This document shows positions 49,745 to 62,796 of a stretch of DNA of 64,000 nt, one piece after another (position 1 is the first letter of the stretch; the number at the start of each line of letters is the position of its first letter). The translations under genes and the position numbers were made by a program. The DNA lies in assembly GCA_015067975.1 (NCBI GenBank), contig SVLK01000002.1, positions 62,001 to 126,000 on the forward strand, written 5' to 3'. A model generated the notes under the pieces. It did not search any database and was not told the origin of the DNA. It saw only the letters and a program-made list of their open reading frames with translations. This stretch comes from Oscillospiraceae bacterium (lineage in GTDB: Bacteria > Bacillota > Clostridia > Oscillospirales > Oscillospiraceae).

Positions 49745-50134
49745 GCGAAGTGCACAAATATAAAAGCGGAAAAGTGCTAAAATTAGTGCAAGTTGCTGCC
49801 ATTGAAAAGCTCTATAAGCTAATTGGCATAGTGCGTTTGGCGGGAGGCGAAAGGGGACGGCGTGGTGCAAACGGCACAGTTTCTTTCCTCTCTGTGAAAA
49901 TCCCCTAAAATAGTGGTTGCTTTTGAACGGTTGGTATGCTATGATTATCGTATCTTATTCCGCCCACCGTGCTGTCACTCCACTTTATGACTCACGGAGG
50001 GAAAACAAAAGGAGGAAAAAGACCCGCTACGACTGGCGGTGCGGCAGTGTGGAGACCTGTCGTAAAGCGGTATCGGCATATGGCCGGCCGTGAGAGCGGA
50101 ACTGCGGAGGCAGTCCGGTTACAGTCAAAACATT
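49745..50134. other. Intergenic region upstream of the MsmK gene
   Basis: 390 bases without a convincing gene. It holds the plus-strand promoter at 49917-49945 and then a 5' untranslated stretch of about 180 nt. An orphan Shine-Dalgarno run AAAAGGAGG at 50007-50015 has no start codon near it. A small hairpin ACTGC-GGAG-GCAGT lies about 20 nt before the MsmK start. Confidence 0.5.
49917..49945 (+). promoter_or_regulatory. Probable promoter of the MsmK gene
   Basis: TTGCTT (49917-49922), 17-bp spacer, TATGAT (49940-49945). Confidence 0.55.
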
Positions 50135-51310
50135 ATGGCAGAAGTCATCCTGAAAAACCTGAAGAAAGTTTACCCCAACTCCGAACCCAAGAAGAAAAAG
50201 GCCAAGAAGGGCGCTGCTGAGCCCGAGAAGAAGATCAATCTGCAGATCACTGATGAAGGCGTTGTCGCCGTTCAGGAGTTCAATCTGCACATTGCCGACA
50301 AGGAATTTATCGTTCTGGTCGGTCCTTCCGGCTGCGGTAAGTCCACCACTCTGCGTATGATCGCAGGTCTGGAAGACATCTCCGGCGGCGAACTGTGGAT
50401 CGGTGACAAGCTGATGAACGATGTGGAGCCCAAGGACCGCAACATCGCCATGGTGTTCCAGAACTACGCTCTGTATCCCCACATGACCGTGTATGACAAC
50501 ATGGCTTTCTCCCTGAAGCTGAAGAAGGCTCCCAAGGAAGAGATCGATAAGCGCGTGCGTGAAGCTGCCGAGATCCTGGACATCACCCAGTATCTGGAGC
50601 GTAAGCCCAAGGCTCTGTCCGGCGGTCAGCGTCAGCGTGTGGCCATCGGCCGCGCCATCGTCCGCGATCCTCAGGTCATGCTGATGGACGAACCCCTGTC
50701 CAACCTGGACGCCAAGCTGCGTAACCAGATGCGCGCTGAGATCATCAAGCTGCGCGAGCGCATCAACACCACCTTCATCTATGTTACCCACGACCAGACC
50801 GAGGCTATGACTCTGGGCGATCGTATCGTCATCATGCGTGACGGTTTCATCCAGCAGATCGGTACTCCTCAGGAAGTGTTCGATCATCCCTCCAACCTGT
50901 TCGTGGCCGGCTTCATCGGCATGCCCCGCATGAACCTGTTTGATGCCCAGCTGGTGAAGGAAAGCGGCAAGTACGTGGTTAAAGTCGGCGGCATCAGCGT
51001 GGAGCTGAGCGAAGACAAGCAGGAGCGTCTCATTGCCAACGATGTGGCTGAGCAGGAAGTGGTTCTGGGTGTCCGTCCCGAGCATATCGTTCTGTGCGCA
51101 GACGGCATCAAGGGCAAGGTGGACGTGTCCGAAATGATGGGTTCCTCCGTGCACCTGCACATCACTGCCGAGGGCAAGGATGTCATCGTGATCGTGGCTA
51201 CCAACGGCGCTGCTGCCAACTTCCCCATGGGCAGCGAGGTCAACATGACCTTCGGCGGCAACGTGGCTCACGTGTTTGGCAAGGAGTCCGGCAAAAACCT
51301 GGAGTGGTAA
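50135..51310 (+). CDS. msmK: Shared sugar-importer ATPase (MsmK/UgpC family)
   Basis: 391 residues from ATG 50135, which begins with the family-typical MAEVILKNLKKVYPN; no close Shine-Dalgarno is present, and a GGAG sits in a small hairpin loop about 20 nt upstream. Walker A GPSGCGKST, signature LSGGQRQR, Walker B VMLMDEPLSNLD, H-loop VTHDQTEA, and a C-terminal OB-type TOBE domain. After the first strand there is an insert of about 30 residues rich in Lys and Glu (KKKKAKKGAAEPEKK) not found in standard MsmK. It hydrolyses ATP for CUT1 sugar importers. Neither importer in the window (9549-12763, 56328-59543) has its own ATPase. Codons are strongly biased, implying high expression. Confidence 0.93.
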   Translation: MAEVILKNLKKVYPNSEPKKKKAKKGAAEPEKKINLQITDEGVVAVQEFNLHIADKEFIVLVGPSGCGKSTTLRMIAGLEDISGGELWIGDKLMNDVEPKDRNIAMVFQNYALYPHMTVYDNMAFSLKLKKAPKEEIDKRVREAAEILDITQYLERKPKALSGGQRQRVAIGRAIVRDPQVMLMDEPLSNLDAKLRNQMRAEIIKLRERINTTFIYVTHDQTEAMTLGDRIVIMRDGFIQQIGTPQEVFDHPSNLFVAGFIGMPRMNLFDAQLVKESGKYVVKVGGISVELSEDKQERLIANDVAEQEVVLGVRPEHIVLCADGIKGKVDVSEMMGSSVHLHITAEGKDVIVIVATNGAAANFPMGSEVNMTFGGNVAHVFGKESGKNLEW

Positions 51311-55250: not shown

Positions 55251-56264
55251 GTGACGATCAAGGATATCGCACGGCTCTGCGGAGTCAGCATCAGCACCGT
55301 TTCCCGCGTGCTCAACGATCGACCCGACGTCAGCGAAGAAAACCGCCGCCGCGTCCTGGCTGTGATCGAAAGCAGCAACTACATCCCCAATAACAGCGCC
55401 CGTGATCTGGTGAAAACCAAGTCCGATGCCATCGGCCTGGTGGTGCGCGGCGTATCCAACCCGTTCTATACCCACATTATCCGCGCCATTGAACAGGCCA
55501 TCGATGAGGGCGGCTTTACCATGGTCATGCAGCAGATCGGTACCTGTGATGACGAGGTGAAGTGCGGCGCTATGATGGAGCGGGACAAGCGTCTGCGCGG
55601 CATCATTTTCCTGGGTGGCCGCAGCGACTATACGCCGGCAGAGCTGGCGGCGCTGAATGTTCCGTTCGTATGCTGTTCGTACAGCAATCACTACGGTTCG
55701 CTGCCGCAGGACAGCTACTCCTCTGTGTCTATCGCCGACGAGGAAGAGGCATACCGTGCAGTGAAGGAACTGTATGACAACGGCCACCGCCGCATTGCCG
55801 CGCTGATCTCCCGGGCAGACGACCGGGCCATCAGTCAGCTGCGCTATCAGGGCTATGTGAAGGCCCTGCGGGACTGCGGTTTGCCGCTGGACGAGGAACT
55901 GGTGATCTCGGCCGGTACGTTCGACATTAAAGATGCCTATCGCGCCACGGCGGAAACGCTGCAAAAGGGTACGGAATTTACCGCCCTGTTTTCCATCGCC
56001 GACAACATGGCCATCGGCGCCATGCGCGCGCTGCGTGAGGCCGGCAAAAATGTGCCGGAGGACTGCTCTGTGATCGCTATTGATGGTCTGGAAGTGTCCG
56101 AGTACATCGATCCTCCGCTGGCAACGCTGTGCCAGCCCATGGAGCAGATGGGACAGCGCAGCGTGGAGATCCTGCTGGACATGGTGCAGGAGAAGGGCGG
56201 CCACCGCCGCGAAACGCTGCCCACTACTTACCGCACCGGCGCATCGGTGCGCAACATCCACTGA
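55251..56264 (+). CDS. LacI-family transcriptional regulator
   Basis: 337 residues from GTG 55251, with AGGAGGTGG at 55236-55244. The N-terminal HTH and hinge are complete (IKDIARLCGVSISTVSRVLN...NYIPNNSARDL), followed by a periplasmic-binding-protein-like sensor domain (GLVVRGVSNPFY, IAIDGLEVSEYIDPPLATLCQP). It is the first gene of the operon that encodes a binding protein, two permeases and a glucanotransferase, so it most likely responds to maltodextrin-type sugars. The palindrome at 55177 makes it autoregulated. Confidence 0.92.
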   Translation: MTIKDIARLCGVSISTVSRVLNDRPDVSEENRRRVLAVIESSNYIPNNSARDLVKTKSDAIGLVVRGVSNPFYTHIIRAIEQAIDEGGFTMVMQQIGTCDDEVKCGAMMERDKRLRGIIFLGGRSDYTPAELAALNVPFVCCSYSNHYGSLPQDSYSSVSIADEEEAYRAVKELYDNGHRRIAALISRADDRAISQLRYQGYVKALRDCGLPLDEELVISAGTFDIKDAYRATAETLQKGTEFTALFSIADNMAIGAMRALREAGKNVPEDCSVIAIDGLEVSEYIDPPLATLCQPMEQMGQRSVEILLDMVQEKGGHRRETLPTTYRTGASVRNIH

Positions 56265-56327
56265 TTTTCCCTCCTTTTGCGGAGTGAAAATAAATACATC
56301 ATTTTTTTAAGAAGGAGCAATGAAATC

Positions 56328-57614
56328 ATGAAGAAGTTTCTTGCAATGATCCTGGCTCTGGTTATGGCACTGTCTCTGGTTGCCTGCGGCGCTAAGGATG
56401 ACGAGAAGGGTTCCGTGTACTGGCTGAACTTCAAGCCCGAGTCCAAGGATGCCCTGGAAGAGATCGCTGCTATGTACACCGAGGAAACCGGCGTTGAGGT
56501 GAAGATCGTCACCGCCGCTTCCGGCGAGTACAACTCCACCCTGACCGCCGAGATGGACAAGGAAGAGGCTCCCACCATCTTCGTCGTGGGTAACGCTGCC
56601 GCTGCCAAGGAGTGGTCCGACTACTGCCTGGATCTGAAGGGCACCGCCATCGCCAATGAGCTGAACACCGATGCTTACAACGTCTATGACGAGAACGGCA
56701 AGCTGTGCTCCATTGGCTACTGCTATGAGTGCTACGGCATCATCGTCAACACCAAGCTGCTGAAGGATGCCGGCTATGAGCTGAGCGACATCACCAACTT
56801 CGACAGCCTGAAGAAGGTTGCCGAGGACATCACCGCTCGCTCCGCTGACCTGGGCTTCAGCGCTTTCGGTTCTGCCGGTATGGGCGGCAGCTCCTCCTGG
56901 CGTTACACTGGTCACCTGATCAACCTGGAGTACTACTATGAGTCCGTGGACGATCCCGCTGCCTGGGCTTCTTGCCCCGCTGAGATCAAGGGTACTTACA
57001 TGGATAACTTCAAGAACCTGTATGATCTGATGGTCAACAACGCTACCGTGGACCGCGCTACCCTGAGCAACCTCGACGATAACGGCGAGGCCGAGTTCTG
57101 CGCCGGCAAGGCCGTGTTCTATGTCAACGGTAACTGGGAGTGGTCCGCCATCGAGAAGGCCGGCTTCACTGCCGATCAGGTTGCTATGATCCCCTACTAC
57201 TGCGGCGTTGCCGGCGAAGAGAAGGCCGGTCTGAACTGCGGTACCGAGAACTGCTGGGCCATCAATGCCAAGGCTTCCGAGGCTGATCAGAAGGCCACCA
57301 TGGACTTCCTGGTTTGGCTGGTGACCGACGCTGAGGCTTCTGCCAAGGCCGTTGCCACCTTCGGCGTTATGCCCTACAAGAAGGCTGTTGCTTCCTCCAA
57401 CCCCTTCCTGGCCGATGCCAACGAGTATGCCAACGCCGGCAACTACACCATGCCTTGGGTCACCAACTTCCAGCCCAACGTGGATGCTTACCGTGCTGCT
57501 GCCGTGTCCGCTATGAACGACTACAACGCTGCTCCCTCCGATGCTACCTGGGAGAAGGTTGAGGCCGCTTTCATCGCCGGCTGGGCCACCCAGTACAAGG
57601 AAGCCAACAAGTAA
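56328..57614 (+). CDS. Substrate-binding lipoprotein of a maltodextrin-type importer
   Basis: 428 residues from ATG 56328 (AAGGAG at 56312-56317). An earlier ATG at 56320 opens only a three-codon reading frame and overlaps the spacing region. The signal peptide ends in lipobox LVAC. The family-1 sugar-binding fold is seen (VYWLNFKPESKDALEEIAAMY, then GKAVFYVNGNWEW, WAINAKASEADQKATMDFLVWL). Codon use is extremely biased to C/G-ending preferred codons, implying very high expression. Its neighbours MalF-, MalG- and MalQ-like genes point to alpha-glucan oligosaccharides. Confidence 0.93.
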   Translation: MKKFLAMILALVMALSLVACGAKDDEKGSVYWLNFKPESKDALEEIAAMYTEETGVEVKIVTAASGEYNSTLTAEMDKEEAPTIFVVGNAAAAKEWSDYCLDLKGTAIANELNTDAYNVYDENGKLCSIGYCYECYGIIVNTKLLKDAGYELSDITNFDSLKKVAEDITARSADLGFSAFGSAGMGGSSSWRYTGHLINLEYYYESVDDPAAWASCPAEIKGTYMDNFKNLYDLMVNNATVDRATLSNLDDNGEAEFCAGKAVFYVNGNWEWSAIEKAGFTADQVAMIPYYCGVAGEEKAGLNCGTENCWAINAKASEADQKATMDFLVWLVTDAEASAKAVATFGVMPYKKAVASSNPFLADANEYANAGNYTMPWVTNFQPNVDAYRAAAVSAMNDYNAAPSDATWEKVEAAFIAGWATQYKEANK

Positions 57615-57656
57615 TCAAAACCGATTCTTTTGAATCGCACATGATTTACCCGGTTG

Positions 57657-57687
57657 ATGGGACGGGCGCAAAATGCGCCCGTCCCAT
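57657..57687. repeat. Extragenic palindrome, 14-bp stem
   Basis: ATGGGACGGGCGCA, AAA loop, then its perfect complement; no T-run. It shares the core ATGGG[GA]CGGGCG with 6130-6161, with a compensatory change in the stem. Located between the binding-protein and permease genes, where it may protect the upstream mRNA and allow unequal expression. Confidence 0.75.
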
Positions 57688-57786
57688 GGCCGCATTTACG
57701 ACATGGCGGGAAAATTTGGCTGCATGAGGCCTTTTCTGCCCGAAAAAGTATGTTTCCCCCAAAATGTAGAGAGAGGATGACACAGC

Positions 57787-58701
57787 ATGAAAAAGCGCAA
57801 AGACTCTTCGGCTGTCACGAGCGTCCTGATCAGCAGACCCATCCGCCGTTGGTTCCCCGCCTTTCTGGCACCTATGGTGGCTGCATTTGCTATCGGTTTC
57901 GTGTGGCCCTTCCTGCAGGGTATCTACCTGTCCTTCTGTAAGTTCCGCACCACTTCCGATGCTGAGTTTATCGGCTTTGGCAACTACTTGAACGCACTGC
58001 AGGATCCGACGTTTCTGCACTCGTTCTGGTACACGGCCCTGTATGCCATCGTTTCGCTGGTGCTGATCAATGTGCTGGCCTTTACCGTGGCCTATGCCCT
58101 GACCCAGAAAATCAAGGGCGCCAATATTTTCCGTACTGTGTTCTTCATGCCCAACCTGATCGGTGGTATCGTTCTGGGTTATATCTGGTCCATGATCTTT
58201 GACGGCATTCTGGGCAAGTACGGCACATCCATTCTGCTGAACTCCACCTGGGGTTTCTGGGGCTTGATCGTCCTGATGTGCTGGCAGCAGATCGGTTACA
58301 TGATGATCATCTATATTGCAGGTCTGCAGGCTGTGCCTGAGGACATGATGGAAGCCGCCCGCATCGACGGCGCCAACCGTTGGCAGACGCTGTTCCATGT
58401 GACCATCCCCAACGTGATGCCCTCCATCACCATCTGCATGTTCCTGTCGCTGACCAACGGCTTCAAGCTGTTCGACCAGAACCTGGCTTTGACCGGCGGT
58501 CTGCCCTATATCATCAATCCCGACGGCAGCACGGTGCACACCACCGAAATGCTGGCCCTGAACATCTACAACACGTTCTACGGCCAGGGCTCTACCTCCC
58601 GCGGTACGGCGCAGGCCAAGGCGGTACTGTTCTTCATTCTGGTGGCCGGACTGGGCCTACTGCAGCTGGGTGCAACCCGTAAAAAGGAGGTACAGCAGTA
58701 A
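57787..58701 (+). CDS. Maltodextrin-type ABC permease (MalF family)
   Basis: 304 residues, GAGAGG before the ATG. Six membrane helices; the EAA loop reads MMEAARIDGANRWQTLFHVTIPNVMPS, a close match to the CUT1 consensus. It forms the channel with the next permease, which starts inside its stop codon (TAATG). It depends on an ATPase encoded elsewhere, presumably MsmK at 50135. Confidence 0.93.
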   Translation: MKKRKDSSAVTSVLISRPIRRWFPAFLAPMVAAFAIGFVWPFLQGIYLSFCKFRTTSDAEFIGFGNYLNALQDPTFLHSFWYTALYAIVSLVLINVLAFTVAYALTQKIKGANIFRTVFFMPNLIGGIVLGYIWSMIFDGILGKYGTSILLNSTWGFWGLIVLMCWQQIGYMMIIYIAGLQAVPEDMMEAARIDGANRWQTLFHVTIPNVMPSITICMFLSLTNGFKLFDQNLALTGGLPYIINPDGSTVHTTEMLALNIYNTFYGQGSTSRGTAQAKAVLFFILVAGLGLLQLGATRKKEVQQ

Positions 58702-59543
58702 TGAAACAGAAAAGACGTATTGGCGCTACTATTTTGACCGTGGTGCTGTCCCTGATCTCCGTGATCTATGTGCTGCCTGTGGTGGCCGTGGCTGTCAACT
58801 CCTTTAAAATCAACTCTTTCGTTAAGAGCGATACTTTCGCGCTGCCTACAGCAGAGAGCTTCGCCGGCTGGGATAACTTTATCACCGGCATGACGCTGGG
58901 CGGCACGTTCTGGTCCTCCGTGTTCTACAGCGTGGTGATCACCATTCTGTCCACCGCACTGATCCTGCTGTTTACCTCTATGGCTGCGTGGTATATCTCC
59001 CGCGTGGACAGCGCCTTCTGCCGTTTGGTGTACTTCCTGTGCGTCTTCTCCATGGTGGTGCCTTTCCAGATGGTGATGTTCACCCTGTCCAAGACGGCGG
59101 ACCGTTTGGATTTCGACACCCCCTGGACCATTCCTGTCATCTATCTGGGCTTCGGCGCAGGCCTGGCTGTGTTCATGTTCGTGGGCTTCGTCAAGTCCAT
59201 CCCGCTGAACATCGAAGAAGCCGCTGTCATCGACGGCTGCGGCCCGCTGCGCACCTTCTTCAACGTGGTGGTACCCATGCTTAAGCCTACCATGATCAGC
59301 GTAGGTATTCTGGAGATCATGTGGGTGTGGAACGACTATCTGCTGCCCTATCTGGTCCTGGACCGCACCAAGTATATGACCATTCCCATTCACATTCAGT
59401 ACCTGAAGGGAAGCTACGGTACGGTGGACCTGGGCGCTACCATGGCGCTGATCCTGCTGAGTGTCATTCCCGTGATCATCTTCTATCTCTGCTGCCAGAA
59501 GCACATCATCAAGGGTGTGGCTGCCGGCGCTGTGAAGGGCTGA
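58701..59543 (+). CDS. Maltodextrin-type ABC permease (MalG family)
   Basis: 280 residues; the ATG shares one base with the stop of the upstream gene. It has six membrane helices, EAA loop IEEAAVIDGCGPLRTFFNVVVPMLKPT, and the C-terminal HIIKGVAAGAVKG typical of MalG-like proteins. Strikingly similar at both ends to the other MalG-type permease at 10466, so both probably contact the same ATPase. Confidence 0.93.
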   Translation: MKQKRRIGATILTVVLSLISVIYVLPVVAVAVNSFKINSFVKSDTFALPTAESFAGWDNFITGMTLGGTFWSSVFYSVVITILSTALILLFTSMAAWYISRVDSAFCRLVYFLCVFSMVVPFQMVMFTLSKTADRLDFDTPWTIPVIYLGFGAGLAVFMFVGFVKSIPLNIEEAAVIDGCGPLRTFFNVVVPMLKPTMISVGILEIMWVWNDYLLPYLVLDRTKYMTIPIHIQYLKGSYGTVDLGATMALILLSVIPVIIFYLCCQKHIIKGVAAGAVKG

Positions 59544-59567
59544 TTCTTCCGTATTCACCAACCATAT

Positions 59568-59588
59568 GGGGAGAGCACAGCTCTCCCC
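59568..59588. repeat. Extragenic stem-loop between permease and malQ
   Basis: GGGGAGAGC, loop ACA, GCTCTCCCC, flanked by ATAT/GTAT. No T-run. It resembles the palindromes at 6130 and 57657 in position and G-rich left arm, although the core differs. Confidence 0.6.
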
Positions 59589-59617
59589 GTATTCCCGAAA
59601 TTGAAAGAAGTTTATTT

Positions 59618-61108
59618 ATGACCATGAAAAGAAGCAGCGGCATTTTGATGCCCATTTCCGCTCTGCCGTCTCCCTACGGCATCGGTACTCTCGGCAAGGC
59701 CGCCTACGACTTTGCAGATTTTCTTCACGCAGCAGGCCAGGGCTACTGGCAGCTGCTGCCCATGGGACCCACCAGCTACGGTGACTCCCCCTACCAGAGC
59801 TTTTCCACCTACGCCGGCAACCCCTATTACATCGACCTTGACATGCTGATCAAGGACGGTCTGCTGACCCGAAAGGATCTGGCCGGCATCGACTGGGGCA
59901 GCAACGAGCGCTATGTGGATTATGCCAAGATCTACGAGAGCCGCTTTGCTGTGCTGGCCAAGGCCAAGGCCCGCGGCTGGCAGCGCGACAGCGCCGAGGT
60001 GGCGCAGTTCGTGGAAGAGAACAAGCGTTGGCTGCCCGACTACGCTCTGTTTATGGCCTGCAAGCGACACTTTGGCATGAAGGCCTGGACGGAGTGGGAG
60101 GATGAGGACATCCGCCTGCGCAAGAATCGTGCCGTACTGGAAGAGTATCGGTTGAAGCTGCGCGAGGATGTGGAGTTCTTCATCTACATCCAATACTTGT
60201 TCTACAAGCAGTGGAATCAGCTCAAAGCTTATATCCACAGCTTGGATATCCGCATCATCGGCGACTTGCCCATCTATGTGGCACTGGACAGCGCTGATGT
60301 ATGGGCAGAGCCCGAGTGGTTCCAGCTGGACAGCCGCAACGTACCTACGGAGGTATCCGGTGTCCCGCCCGACTACTTCAGCGAGGACGGTCAGCTGTGG
60401 GGCAATCCTCTGTATCGCTGGGACACCATGCAGGAGGATGGCTTCGGCTGGTGGATCCGCCGCGTGGATGGTGCCGGCAAGCTGTTTGACGTGATCCGCA
60501 TCGATCATTTCCGCGGGCTGGAGAGCTACTGGTCTGTGCCCTATGGCGAGACCACGGCCAAGAACGGCCGTTGGGTCAAGGGTCCCGGCATGCGTTTTGT
60601 CAATGCAGTGATGGGGTGGTTCCCCGAACTGGAGTTTATTGCTGAGGATTTGGGTTATCCCACACCCGAGGTGGCACAGCTGCTGCGCGACTCCAAGCTG
60701 CCCGGTATGAAGGTGCTGGTGTTTGCCTTTGACTCTCGCGATTCCAGCAGCTATCTGCCGCATGTGTACGGTGAGAACTGCATCTGTTACACCGGTACGC
60801 ACGACAACGCTCCCATTGCTCTGTGGCGCAAGGAGGCCGCCAAGGCCGACATCAAGTTTGCCACCGAGTATCTGGGTCTCAATGAAGCCGAGGGCTTCAA
60901 CTGGGGCATGATCCGCGGCGGCATGAGCTCCGTGGCAAAGCTGTTTGTGGCGCAGATGCAGGACTATCTGGAGCTGGGCGAAGGTCACCGCATGAACACG
61001 CCCGGTATCGCCAGCGGCAACTGGCAGTGGCGTATGTGCAAGGGCGAGGCGTCCAAGAAATTGGCGCGCCGCATCAAAGCTGCCGCTACGCTGTACGGCC
61101 GCGTATAA
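59618..61108 (+). CDS. malQ: 4-alpha-glucanotransferase (amylomaltase, GH77)
   Basis: 496 residues from ATG 59618; the frame is open much further upstream but inside the permease gene, so this start, at the beginning of the family's MKRSSGILMPISALPSPYGIG, is preferred. GH77 catalytic motifs: the nucleophile Asp in VIRIDHFRGLESYW, the acid/base Glu in FIAEDLGYP and the third Asp in GTHDNAP. It transfers alpha-1,4-glucan chains between maltodextrins in the cytoplasm. The ribosome site (GAAAGAAG) is weak. Last gene of the operon, before a strong terminator. Confidence 0.95.
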   Translation: MTMKRSSGILMPISALPSPYGIGTLGKAAYDFADFLHAAGQGYWQLLPMGPTSYGDSPYQSFSTYAGNPYYIDLDMLIKDGLLTRKDLAGIDWGSNERYVDYAKIYESRFAVLAKAKARGWQRDSAEVAQFVEENKRWLPDYALFMACKRHFGMKAWTEWEDEDIRLRKNRAVLEEYRLKLREDVEFFIYIQYLFYKQWNQLKAYIHSLDIRIIGDLPIYVALDSADVWAEPEWFQLDSRNVPTEVSGVPPDYFSEDGQLWGNPLYRWDTMQEDGFGWWIRRVDGAGKLFDVIRIDHFRGLESYWSVPYGETTAKNGRWVKGPGMRFVNAVMGWFPELEFIAEDLGYPTPEVAQLLRDSKLPGMKVLVFAFDSRDSSSYLPHVYGENCICYTGTHDNAPIALWRKEAAKADIKFATEYLGLNEAEGFNWGMIRGGMSSVAKLFVAQMQDYLELGEGHRMNTPGIASGNWQWRMCKGEASKKLARRIKAAATLYGRV

Positions 61109-62651: not shown

Positions 62652-62682
62652 GGACAAAAAAAGAACCGGTAACAATACCGGT
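62652..62682 (-). terminator. Leader terminator (attenuator) before the uracil permease gene
   Basis: On the minus strand a 7-bp stem ACCGGTA / TACCGGT with loop TTGT (62665-62682) is followed by TCTTTTTTTG. It stands about 50 nt before the permease start. Its 5' arm overlaps the stop codon of the leader peptide, so a ribosome finishing that peptide would keep the hairpin from forming. Confidence 0.8.
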
Positions 62683-62741
62683 CAAAAGATAATAATAGAG
62701 GGAACGACCATGCGGCTTTCAGAAACGGCAGAAAACATCAT
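62682..62741 (-). CDS. 19-residue leader peptide of the uracil permease gene
   Basis: Reading frame MMFSAVSESRMVVPSIIIF, preceded by a near-perfect Shine-Dalgarno (AAGGAGGTGA at 62747-62756). The last codons are encoded by a pyrimidine/U-rich stretch (CCCTCTATTATTATCTTTTG) that runs straight into the terminator stem. This is the arrangement of E. coli pyrBI, where RNA polymerase pausing on U-rich sequence at low UTP lets the ribosome catch up and block termination. The peptide itself is probably not functional. Confidence 0.7.
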   Translation of the reverse strand: MMFSAVSESRMVVPSIIIF

Positions 62742-62767
62742 GATTGTCACCTCCTTGCATCTTGCTC

Positions 62768-62796
62768 ATTATAAAATCGACAGCGACAAAAAGCAA
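62768..62796 (-). promoter_or_regulatory. Promoter of the uracil permease transcript
   Basis: TTGCTT (62791-62796), 17-bp spacer, TATAAT (62768-62773) on the minus strand. The transcript should start near 62761, just before the leader-peptide ribosome site. Confidence 0.78.

Follow-up and report, generated by a model that had tools for sequence, protein, structure and literature searches.

A putative translation-coupled, UTP-sensing attenuator upstream of the uracil permease gene uraA in Oscillospiraceae

PyrR is the usual regulator of pyr genes in Firmicutes, and in the pyrR-pyrP-pyrB region of Bacillus subtilis a leader terminator under PyrR control governs the uracil permease gene. In the pyrE attenuator of Escherichia coli, the end of rph doubles as the leader ORF, which stops close to the terminator. 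The pyrBI attenuator of E. coli, with its leader ORF pyrL, combines a promoter, a Shine-Dalgarno (SD) sequence, a short ORF, a U-rich tract and an intrinsic terminator that a ribosome can cover. In E. coli, a ribosome at a stop codon near a terminator represses termination, for which pyrBI needs pausing, while the stop codon of amino-acid attenuators lies more than 20 bases from the terminator (PMC4824070). Within Firmicutes, the tlrB and vmlR leaders of B. subtilis depend on NusG and the ribosome and combine a leader ORF with pausing at a TTNTTT motif (PMC9226507). Naville and Gautheret (2010) described histidine leader peptides in bacilli and noted that, apart from ermC, they knew of no demonstrated case beyond Proteobacteria and Actinobacteria (PMC2965389); the words uraA, pyrB, uracil and pyrimidine are absent from the main text of that study. 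Later work includes amino-acid leader peptides in Firmicutes (e.g., PMC5794164).

Here, we examine a leader upstream of uraA in an Oscillospiraceae bacterium (GCA_015067975.1, contig SVLK01000002.1, positions 62,001 to 126,000). This whole stretch of 64,000 nt is referred to as the window, and all coordinates are relative to it. A sequence-only reading had proposed a compact pyrBI-type, UTP-sensing attenuator at this locus, and most of the parts it named are present as described (Table 1). The near-perfect SD is indeed a strong one, the 19-codon frame (MMFSAVSESRMVVPSIIIF) closes on the U-rich stretch with the residues Ile-Ile-Ile-Phe (three consecutive Ile codons), the stop codon supplies the first bases of the terminator hairpin, whose run of seven Ts agrees with the seven or more Us proposed, and uraA follows, starting 51 bases past these Ts. 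The term "consensus promoter" holds for the perfect -10 box but was overstated for the -35 box, which is weak and matches TTGACA at only 3/6 positions.

Table 1 Features of the uraA leader region, in window coordinates. Leader and promoter together occupy 62796-62655 on the minus strand, as read from the sequence.
Feature	Position	Strand	Description	Basis
Promoter	62768..62796	-	-35-like TTGCTT 62796-62791, 17-base spacer, -10 TATAAT 62773-62768	sequence
Shine-Dalgarno of the leader frame	62749..62756	-	AAGGAGGT; also within the 5' arm of hairpin P1	sequence and pairing
Leader ORF	62682..62741	-	19 codons and TGA; ATG at 62741, stop TGA 62684-62682	sequence
U-rich tract	62684..62701	-	CCTCTATTATTATCTTTT, 11/18 T; proposed UTP-dependent pause region; start of the tract is the anti-SD	sequence
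Hairpin P1	62686..62763	-	SD region with the U/C-rich tract	predicted fold
Intrinsic terminator	62655..62683	-	hairpin GACCGGTATTGTTACCGGTT 62683-62664, T7 62662-62656	sequence, fold and detector rules
uraA	61267..62604	-	NCS2-family uracil permease, 445 aa; controlled gene	profile matches

From close to the expected transcript start up to the terminator (62766-62663), the leader folds as two hairpins, P1 and the terminator, and is more stable than expected by chance (z -4.06; 0/200 dinucleotide shuffles equally stable). Within P1, the predicted fold pairs GGAGG (62754-62750) with 62701-62697 and closes an outer helix between 62763-62758 and 62691-62686. Rfam returned no match at the gathering level for the leader, and at the lax level only three sRNA matches far under their cut-offs; no second copy of the terminator occurs in the same genome with up to 3 mismatches. 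Upstream of the leader, bioY (PF02632) lies on the same strand, and the convergent downstream neighbour of uraA is a sugar-uptake gene cluster whose last gene encodes a GH77 glucanotransferase. The window also contains a malK-I RNA motif (RF03069, 133 bits) at 49958-50140 (+), together with genes for a LacI-type regulator, a binding protein, two permeases and a 4-alpha-glucanotransferase (55251-61108, +).

UraA scores 329 bits against TIGR00801 (NCS2 permeases; cut-off 292) and is also above the cut-off of PF00860, in agreement with the permease gene named by the sequence-only reading. It falls below the cut-off of the uracil permease equivalog model (318 vs 477), yet that score exceeds the 212 obtained with the xanthine model. 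Because, in addition, uracil permeases make up the three closest matches among solved sequences (8omz, 3qe7 and 5xls), relatives with 60-67% identity lie directly behind pyrR in 11/13 pyrR genomes, and upp is present in the same genome, uracil is the likely substrate.

With these parts in place, uraA is probably controlled by a pyrBI-type, translation-coupled transcription attenuator that responds to UTP and stands in for PyrR at this gene. When UTP is plentiful, RNA polymerase would cross the U-rich tract before the ribosome follows, the terminator would form, and uraA would be off. When UTP is scarce, RNA polymerase would stall in the tract; meanwhile, a ribosome recruited by the leader SD would read the frame as far as its stop codon, within the first arm of the terminator, such that the hairpin would be blocked and uraA transcribed. 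UTP-dependent pausing, the response to UTP, leader translation and readthrough are steps we infer from sequence comparisons.

The sequence-only reading had suggested aligning leaders across related genomes, and such a comparison yielded 79 distinct leaders that support nucleotide-level control coupled to translation. We searched for UraA in 200 genomes of the family, 89 of which had a match at E 1e-60, and assembled 150 uraA upstream regions, that of the window included (70 from the 89-genome set and the best 80 named-record loci); these are 150 regions rather than 150 genomes, as some genomes belong to both collections. Regions were screened for a terminator within 165 bases of uraA and an SD-led ORF of 12-65 codons reaching the hairpin. 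The full layout was found in 84 regions, a terminator without the ORF in 2, and no terminator under these rules in 64, which after removal of 5 duplicates left the 79 leaders and 81 distinct terminators. Four further leaders show the layout by eye but fail the T-run rule and are excluded from the 79; all four (L014, L019, L134 and L135) enter the tree below, and the first two also the PyrR contingency. At least five of six -10 box positions match before 67/79 leaders, at a median of 30 bases ahead of the start codon, vs 17/78 in controls further upstream. It is highly improbable that these regions merely hold a constitutive, partial terminator next to a chance short ORF. Leaky leader terminators are indeed common, but an SD-led short ORF reaches the hairpin at 79/81 near-uraA terminators, vs a mean of 15% in shuffled upstream sequence and 0/16 at the other terminators in the window, and the T-ending codon choice described below likewise argues against a chance ORF.

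The leader ORFs comprise 17-55 codons (median 25), start with ATG in 72/79 leaders and stop with TGA in 60. The last base of the stop codon falls within the hairpin or at most 3 bases ahead of it in 73/79, while three of the six others (L024, L116 and L146) read through the whole terminator, as pyrL does. Most of the leaders thus differ from pyrL, which has 44 codons and runs through its terminator, as well as from the pyrE attenuator, in which the ORF is a full gene rather than a dedicated short leader. The stop position appears to fit repression of termination by a ribosome stopped near the terminator and not the spacing of amino-acid attenuators.

Named carriers of the leader belong to Oscillibacter, Pseudoflavonifractor, Flavonifractor, Lawsonibacter, Dysosmobacter and Evtepia (L138, with a weak tract), and the layout occurs in 0/22 loci labelled Lachnospiraceae or Butyrivibrio. 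Elsewhere in the order, 6/21 loci belonging to other families (L195-L215) carry the leader, four in f7 and two in f26, although two of the four f7 loci are identical to named loci already counted. On a quick tree of 131 UraA proteins, the attenuator label requires 9 changes vs 39.6 with shuffled labels, which indicates that the trait tracks descent, apparently with several gains or losses. One contig labelled uncultured Spirochaetales bacterium (L130) has a uraA that groups with Oscillospiraceae and carries the leader, likely reflecting a mis-binned MAG or a transfer.

The leader peptide itself is not what is conserved, because all three codon positions (1, 2 and 3) vary to a similar extent in 23 sister pairs (71/354, 63/361 and 62/359, respectively). 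In the same pairs, gaps are a multiple of three in only 27/92 cases, a count taken from diverged pairs with unsure alignments, and the six closest pairs are gap-free. Since neither substitutions nor gaps in these 23 pairs carry a coding signature, the case for leader translation rests on the SD, the frame and the position of the stop codon. Nucleotide composition behaves differently from the peptide. The T fraction is 0.47 in the 30 bases before the hairpin vs 0.25 elsewhere in the ORF (79 leaders); at distances of 31 bases or more from the hairpin it is 0.13-0.29, and nearer to it 0.41-0.57, with the peak in the final 10 bases ahead of the terminator. Toward the hairpin, C remains steady at 0.16-0.30 while A and G drop. 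A few leaders have weak tracts (e.g., L017, L074 and L138).

This enrichment extends to the choice among synonymous codons. Each of the three codon positions of the tract is rich in T (0.40, 0.45 and 0.51), and the last 36 bases contain 409 T-ending synonymous codons vs 116 expected from uraA usage (66/79 leaders with a full uraA; 13 left out). The uraA gene is a biased yardstick, and the contrast within the leaders is fairer, because the early part of the ORFs already exceeds uraA usage (130 T-ending codons observed vs 76 expected); within the same ORFs, 472/844 late vs 187/708 early codons end in T. The dominance of T-ending synonymous codons suggests that nucleotides rather than amino acids are sensed, and the tract appears shaped as nucleotides, above all U, which would suit a UTP-dependent pause and not a tRNA sensor.

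We consider it very unlikely that the leader is an amino-acid attenuator, in which scarce charged tRNA (e.g., for Ile or Phe) would stall the ribosome and switch alternative hairpins. The Ile-Ile-Ile-Phe end of the window leader would suit such a device, as would Phe and Ser being the commonest tract residues (0.18 and 0.17), but no residue exceeds 18% of the tract, no single regulatory codon run is shared across relatives, and the T enrichment at every codon position and in synonymous choice goes beyond any one amino acid. The stop codon lies within the terminator instead of more than about 20 bases ahead of it, the controlled gene encodes a uracil permease, and the first arm of the terminator shows no sign of pairing with an antiterminator (mean z 0.12, standard error 0.11). 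What the leaders do share with the pyrBI attenuator is a pyrimidine gene preceded by an SD-led ORF and an intrinsic terminator, the extension of that ORF into or through the terminator, a U-rich tract just upstream (T fraction 0.43 in pyrL, read with the same script), and the lack of a competing antiterminator. They differ in occurring in another phylum, and in controlling uraA and not pyrBI; the latter difference bars the statement that this is the pyrBI attenuator but not that it works like one.

The pyrBI-type reading also gains support from the distribution of PyrR. In the genome of the window, the best PyrR match reaches 23.5 bits vs a cut-off of 138 (the genome is 84% complete), and three congeners at 96-100% completeness have no PyrR match. 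PyrR was found in 13/71 genomes searched. Among 69 genomes, 37 have the leader only, 12 PyrR only, none both and 20 neither (Fisher 2.6e-5, a value that overstates independence as the genomes are related); this contingency omits G196 and G115, for which there was no upstream region, and the second uraA-like gene of G078 (L064). Put differently, PyrR is present in 0/37 leader genomes vs 12/32 without the leader, and five of the PyrR-less leader genomes are listed as 100% complete (G066, G077, G078, G080 and G125). The simplest reading suggests that leader control replaced PyrR control at uraA, although this would not be the sole path, because 20 genomes have neither.

A conserved PyrR-binding fold, which the sequence-only reading had said would refute its proposal, was sought in the leader and in its relatives and was not found. 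In keeping with the reading's statement that no PyrR-binding loop was recognised, Rfam scans gave no PyrR match and a pattern search of the 79 leaders found none. The Rfam result taken alone is weak evidence because Rfam was equally silent at 8 control loci before pyrR. At those loci, we noticed a recurrent element, UUUUAA..CGGUACAGAGA..CCGGCAA, upstream of pyrR in L185, L186, L190 and L192, with a CAGAGA loop; by pattern, CGGUACAGAGA..CCGG lies ahead of pyrR in these 4/8 pyrR genomes and in 0/79 leaders, and in L187 the pattern match is located elsewhere but a similar element before pyrR is visible by eye. This element is possibly the PyrR-binding loop of the group, uncalled by Rfam. PyrR control is the customary Firmicutes solution, and relatives with uraA behind pyrR do exist, but PyrR stays below the cut-off in all 37 leader genomes and the leaders lack a PyrR-like loop, whereas the B. 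subtilis attenuators need both; we therefore regard a PyrR attenuator with a divergent binding loop as extremely improbable.

We also examined pyrB, for which 29 matches were obtained and 26 upstream regions from 24 genomes were inspected (partial L100-L102 left out). None of the 26 regions, about 23 of them well anchored (L076, L084 and L086 are mis-anchored), has a uraA-type leader. A weak leader match 701 bases upstream of pyrB in L078, with the tail TAATATTTT, was rejected as it resembles the end of another gene. Control of pyrimidine synthesis as a whole by such a leader would thus not follow from our data. A pyrB match is absent from 7/34 genomes searched, of which six, all with the leader, are listed as 96-100% complete (G014, G036, G080, G116, G154 and G187, with uraA loci L012, L005, L006, L029, L007 and L004, respectively). 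These six may be pyrimidine auxotrophs dependent on imported uracil; should they be unable to make pyrimidines, uraA would be the main entry, and its control by UTP would matter more.

Pairing between the SD and the tract, which the sequence-only reading overlooked, exceeds what composition explains. Folding the SD region with the last 40 bases before the terminator gives a mean of -17.4 kcal/mol vs -14.8 kcal/mol for SDs with the tracts of other leaders (0/5000 permutations; n = 78, as one of the 79 leaders has too short a tract). Relative to dinucleotide shuffles of the tract, the mean z is -1.42 (standard error 0.15), and the reversed tract pairs more weakly with the SD in 63/78; no comparable pairing is seen for the early portion of the ORF (z +0.40, n = 60). 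The result holds for 32 representatives of 65% identity clusters (0/5000, z -1.36), while pyrL pairs only at the level of its composition (z -0.13) vs a mean z of about -1.4 in the uraA leaders. In folds with the native tract, the unpaired fraction of the SD core is 0.14; shuffling the tract raises it to 0.24, and ending the transcript before the tract raises it to 0.51. Composition alone accounts for a pairing of 0.58 vs 0.77 for native sequences, and ten of the 79 leaders have SD:tract pairing of 0.5 or less. For the window leader, the gain is uneven: the SD is unpaired at 0.15 vs 0.20 with shuffled tracts, and paired with the last 45 bases at 0.85 vs 0.54.

Of three clades subjected to consensus folding with RNAalifold, two have a clear SD:tract helix. 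In the clade that includes the window, the helix is not clear; there, a gappy alignment gives only a 6-pair helix between the SD and a stretch further upstream. The pair count of one of the two clades with the helix is higher on five measures than in the bulk of shuffles (3 to 21 of 500 reach it), with the reservation that its structure derives from the sequences it tests. The same count exceeds that of slid versions on 4/5 measures, the remaining one being cells changed on both sides (10 vs 12 at slide -2).

These observations bear on whether the leader could instead sense general translation capacity or ribosome supply, with the tract serving as the anti-SD strand and UTP playing no part. 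Such a sensor would account for SD:tract pairing above composition-matched controls, and a purine-rich SD calls for a pyrimidine-rich partner. It is nonetheless unlikely, given that the enrichment concerns T and leaves out C, the better partner for G, that T peaks in the last 10 bases whereas the paired 3' arm ends at a median of 11 bases before the terminator, and that the controlled gene is a uracil permease, with the layout not found before pyrB.

For a UTP-sensing attenuator, the pairing suggests an added and less certain step, in which the finished tract would mask the SD in P1 and a fast polymerase would shut the ribosome out. A polymerase held in the T-richest last bases would still cover the anti-SD. 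At low UTP, the tract would be crossed slowly with the anti-SD still in the exit channel, leaving the SD free for a ribosome to load and allow readthrough; at high UTP, the anti-SD would emerge at once, the SD would be buried, and the terminator would form with no ribosome to stop it. The tract might thus be both a pause site and an SD-masking strand, forming a two-hairpin kinetic switch, or UTP-timed ribosome gate, in PyrR's place at uraA in Oscillospiraceae. We advance this only tentatively, at somewhat less than even odds; the want of a clear helix in the consensus fold of the clade that holds the window lowers these odds. To our knowledge, the pyrBI model contains no such gate.

In B. subtilis, the ribosome lags behind RNA polymerase (PMC9226507), and coupling of transcription and translation in Clostridia therefore cannot, by analogy, be assumed. 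If the same lag held in Oscillospiraceae, a long pause or a P1-like gate would be needed all the more; with the gate, if real, attenuation coupled to translation could operate even in cells whose polymerase tends to run ahead of the ribosome. NusG-dependent pausing at TTNTTT is a possibility in these leaders. The motif is found in 44/79 tracts vs 28.7 in shuffles, but the enrichment is weak after relatives are thinned (17/33 representatives vs 13.0 in dinucleotide shuffles, 11/300 as high), and by inspection the window's own tract lacks it. The tlrB and vmlR leaders also differ in what they sense, namely antibiotics via ribosome stalling, whereas the uraA leader is proposed to sense UTP.

The sequence-only reading regarded a translation-coupled UTP sensor in this group as new, and this stands provisionally, as the open-access literature searched yielded no description of a UTP attenuator coupled to translation in Firmicutes. 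Our results suggest that a family of gut Clostridia controls uracil uptake by a purely cis-acting race between ribosome and polymerase while relatives use PyrR. In the best-studied member of this phylum, transcription and translation are reportedly uncoupled; a leader of <150 bases makes functional coupling in Clostridia directly testable, and the many natural leader variants lend themselves to dissecting the effects of stop position, tract and SD masking on the response. Two loci retain the terminator with a degenerate leader frame or U-rich tract (L060 of G189 and L138 of Evtepia gabavorous), a possible sign of attenuator decay. In L009 (G081), an SD and the TTG start of a 9-codon frame lie, by eye, at the first arm of the terminator just upstream of uraA, an arrangement in which ribosome binding alone would block the hairpin.
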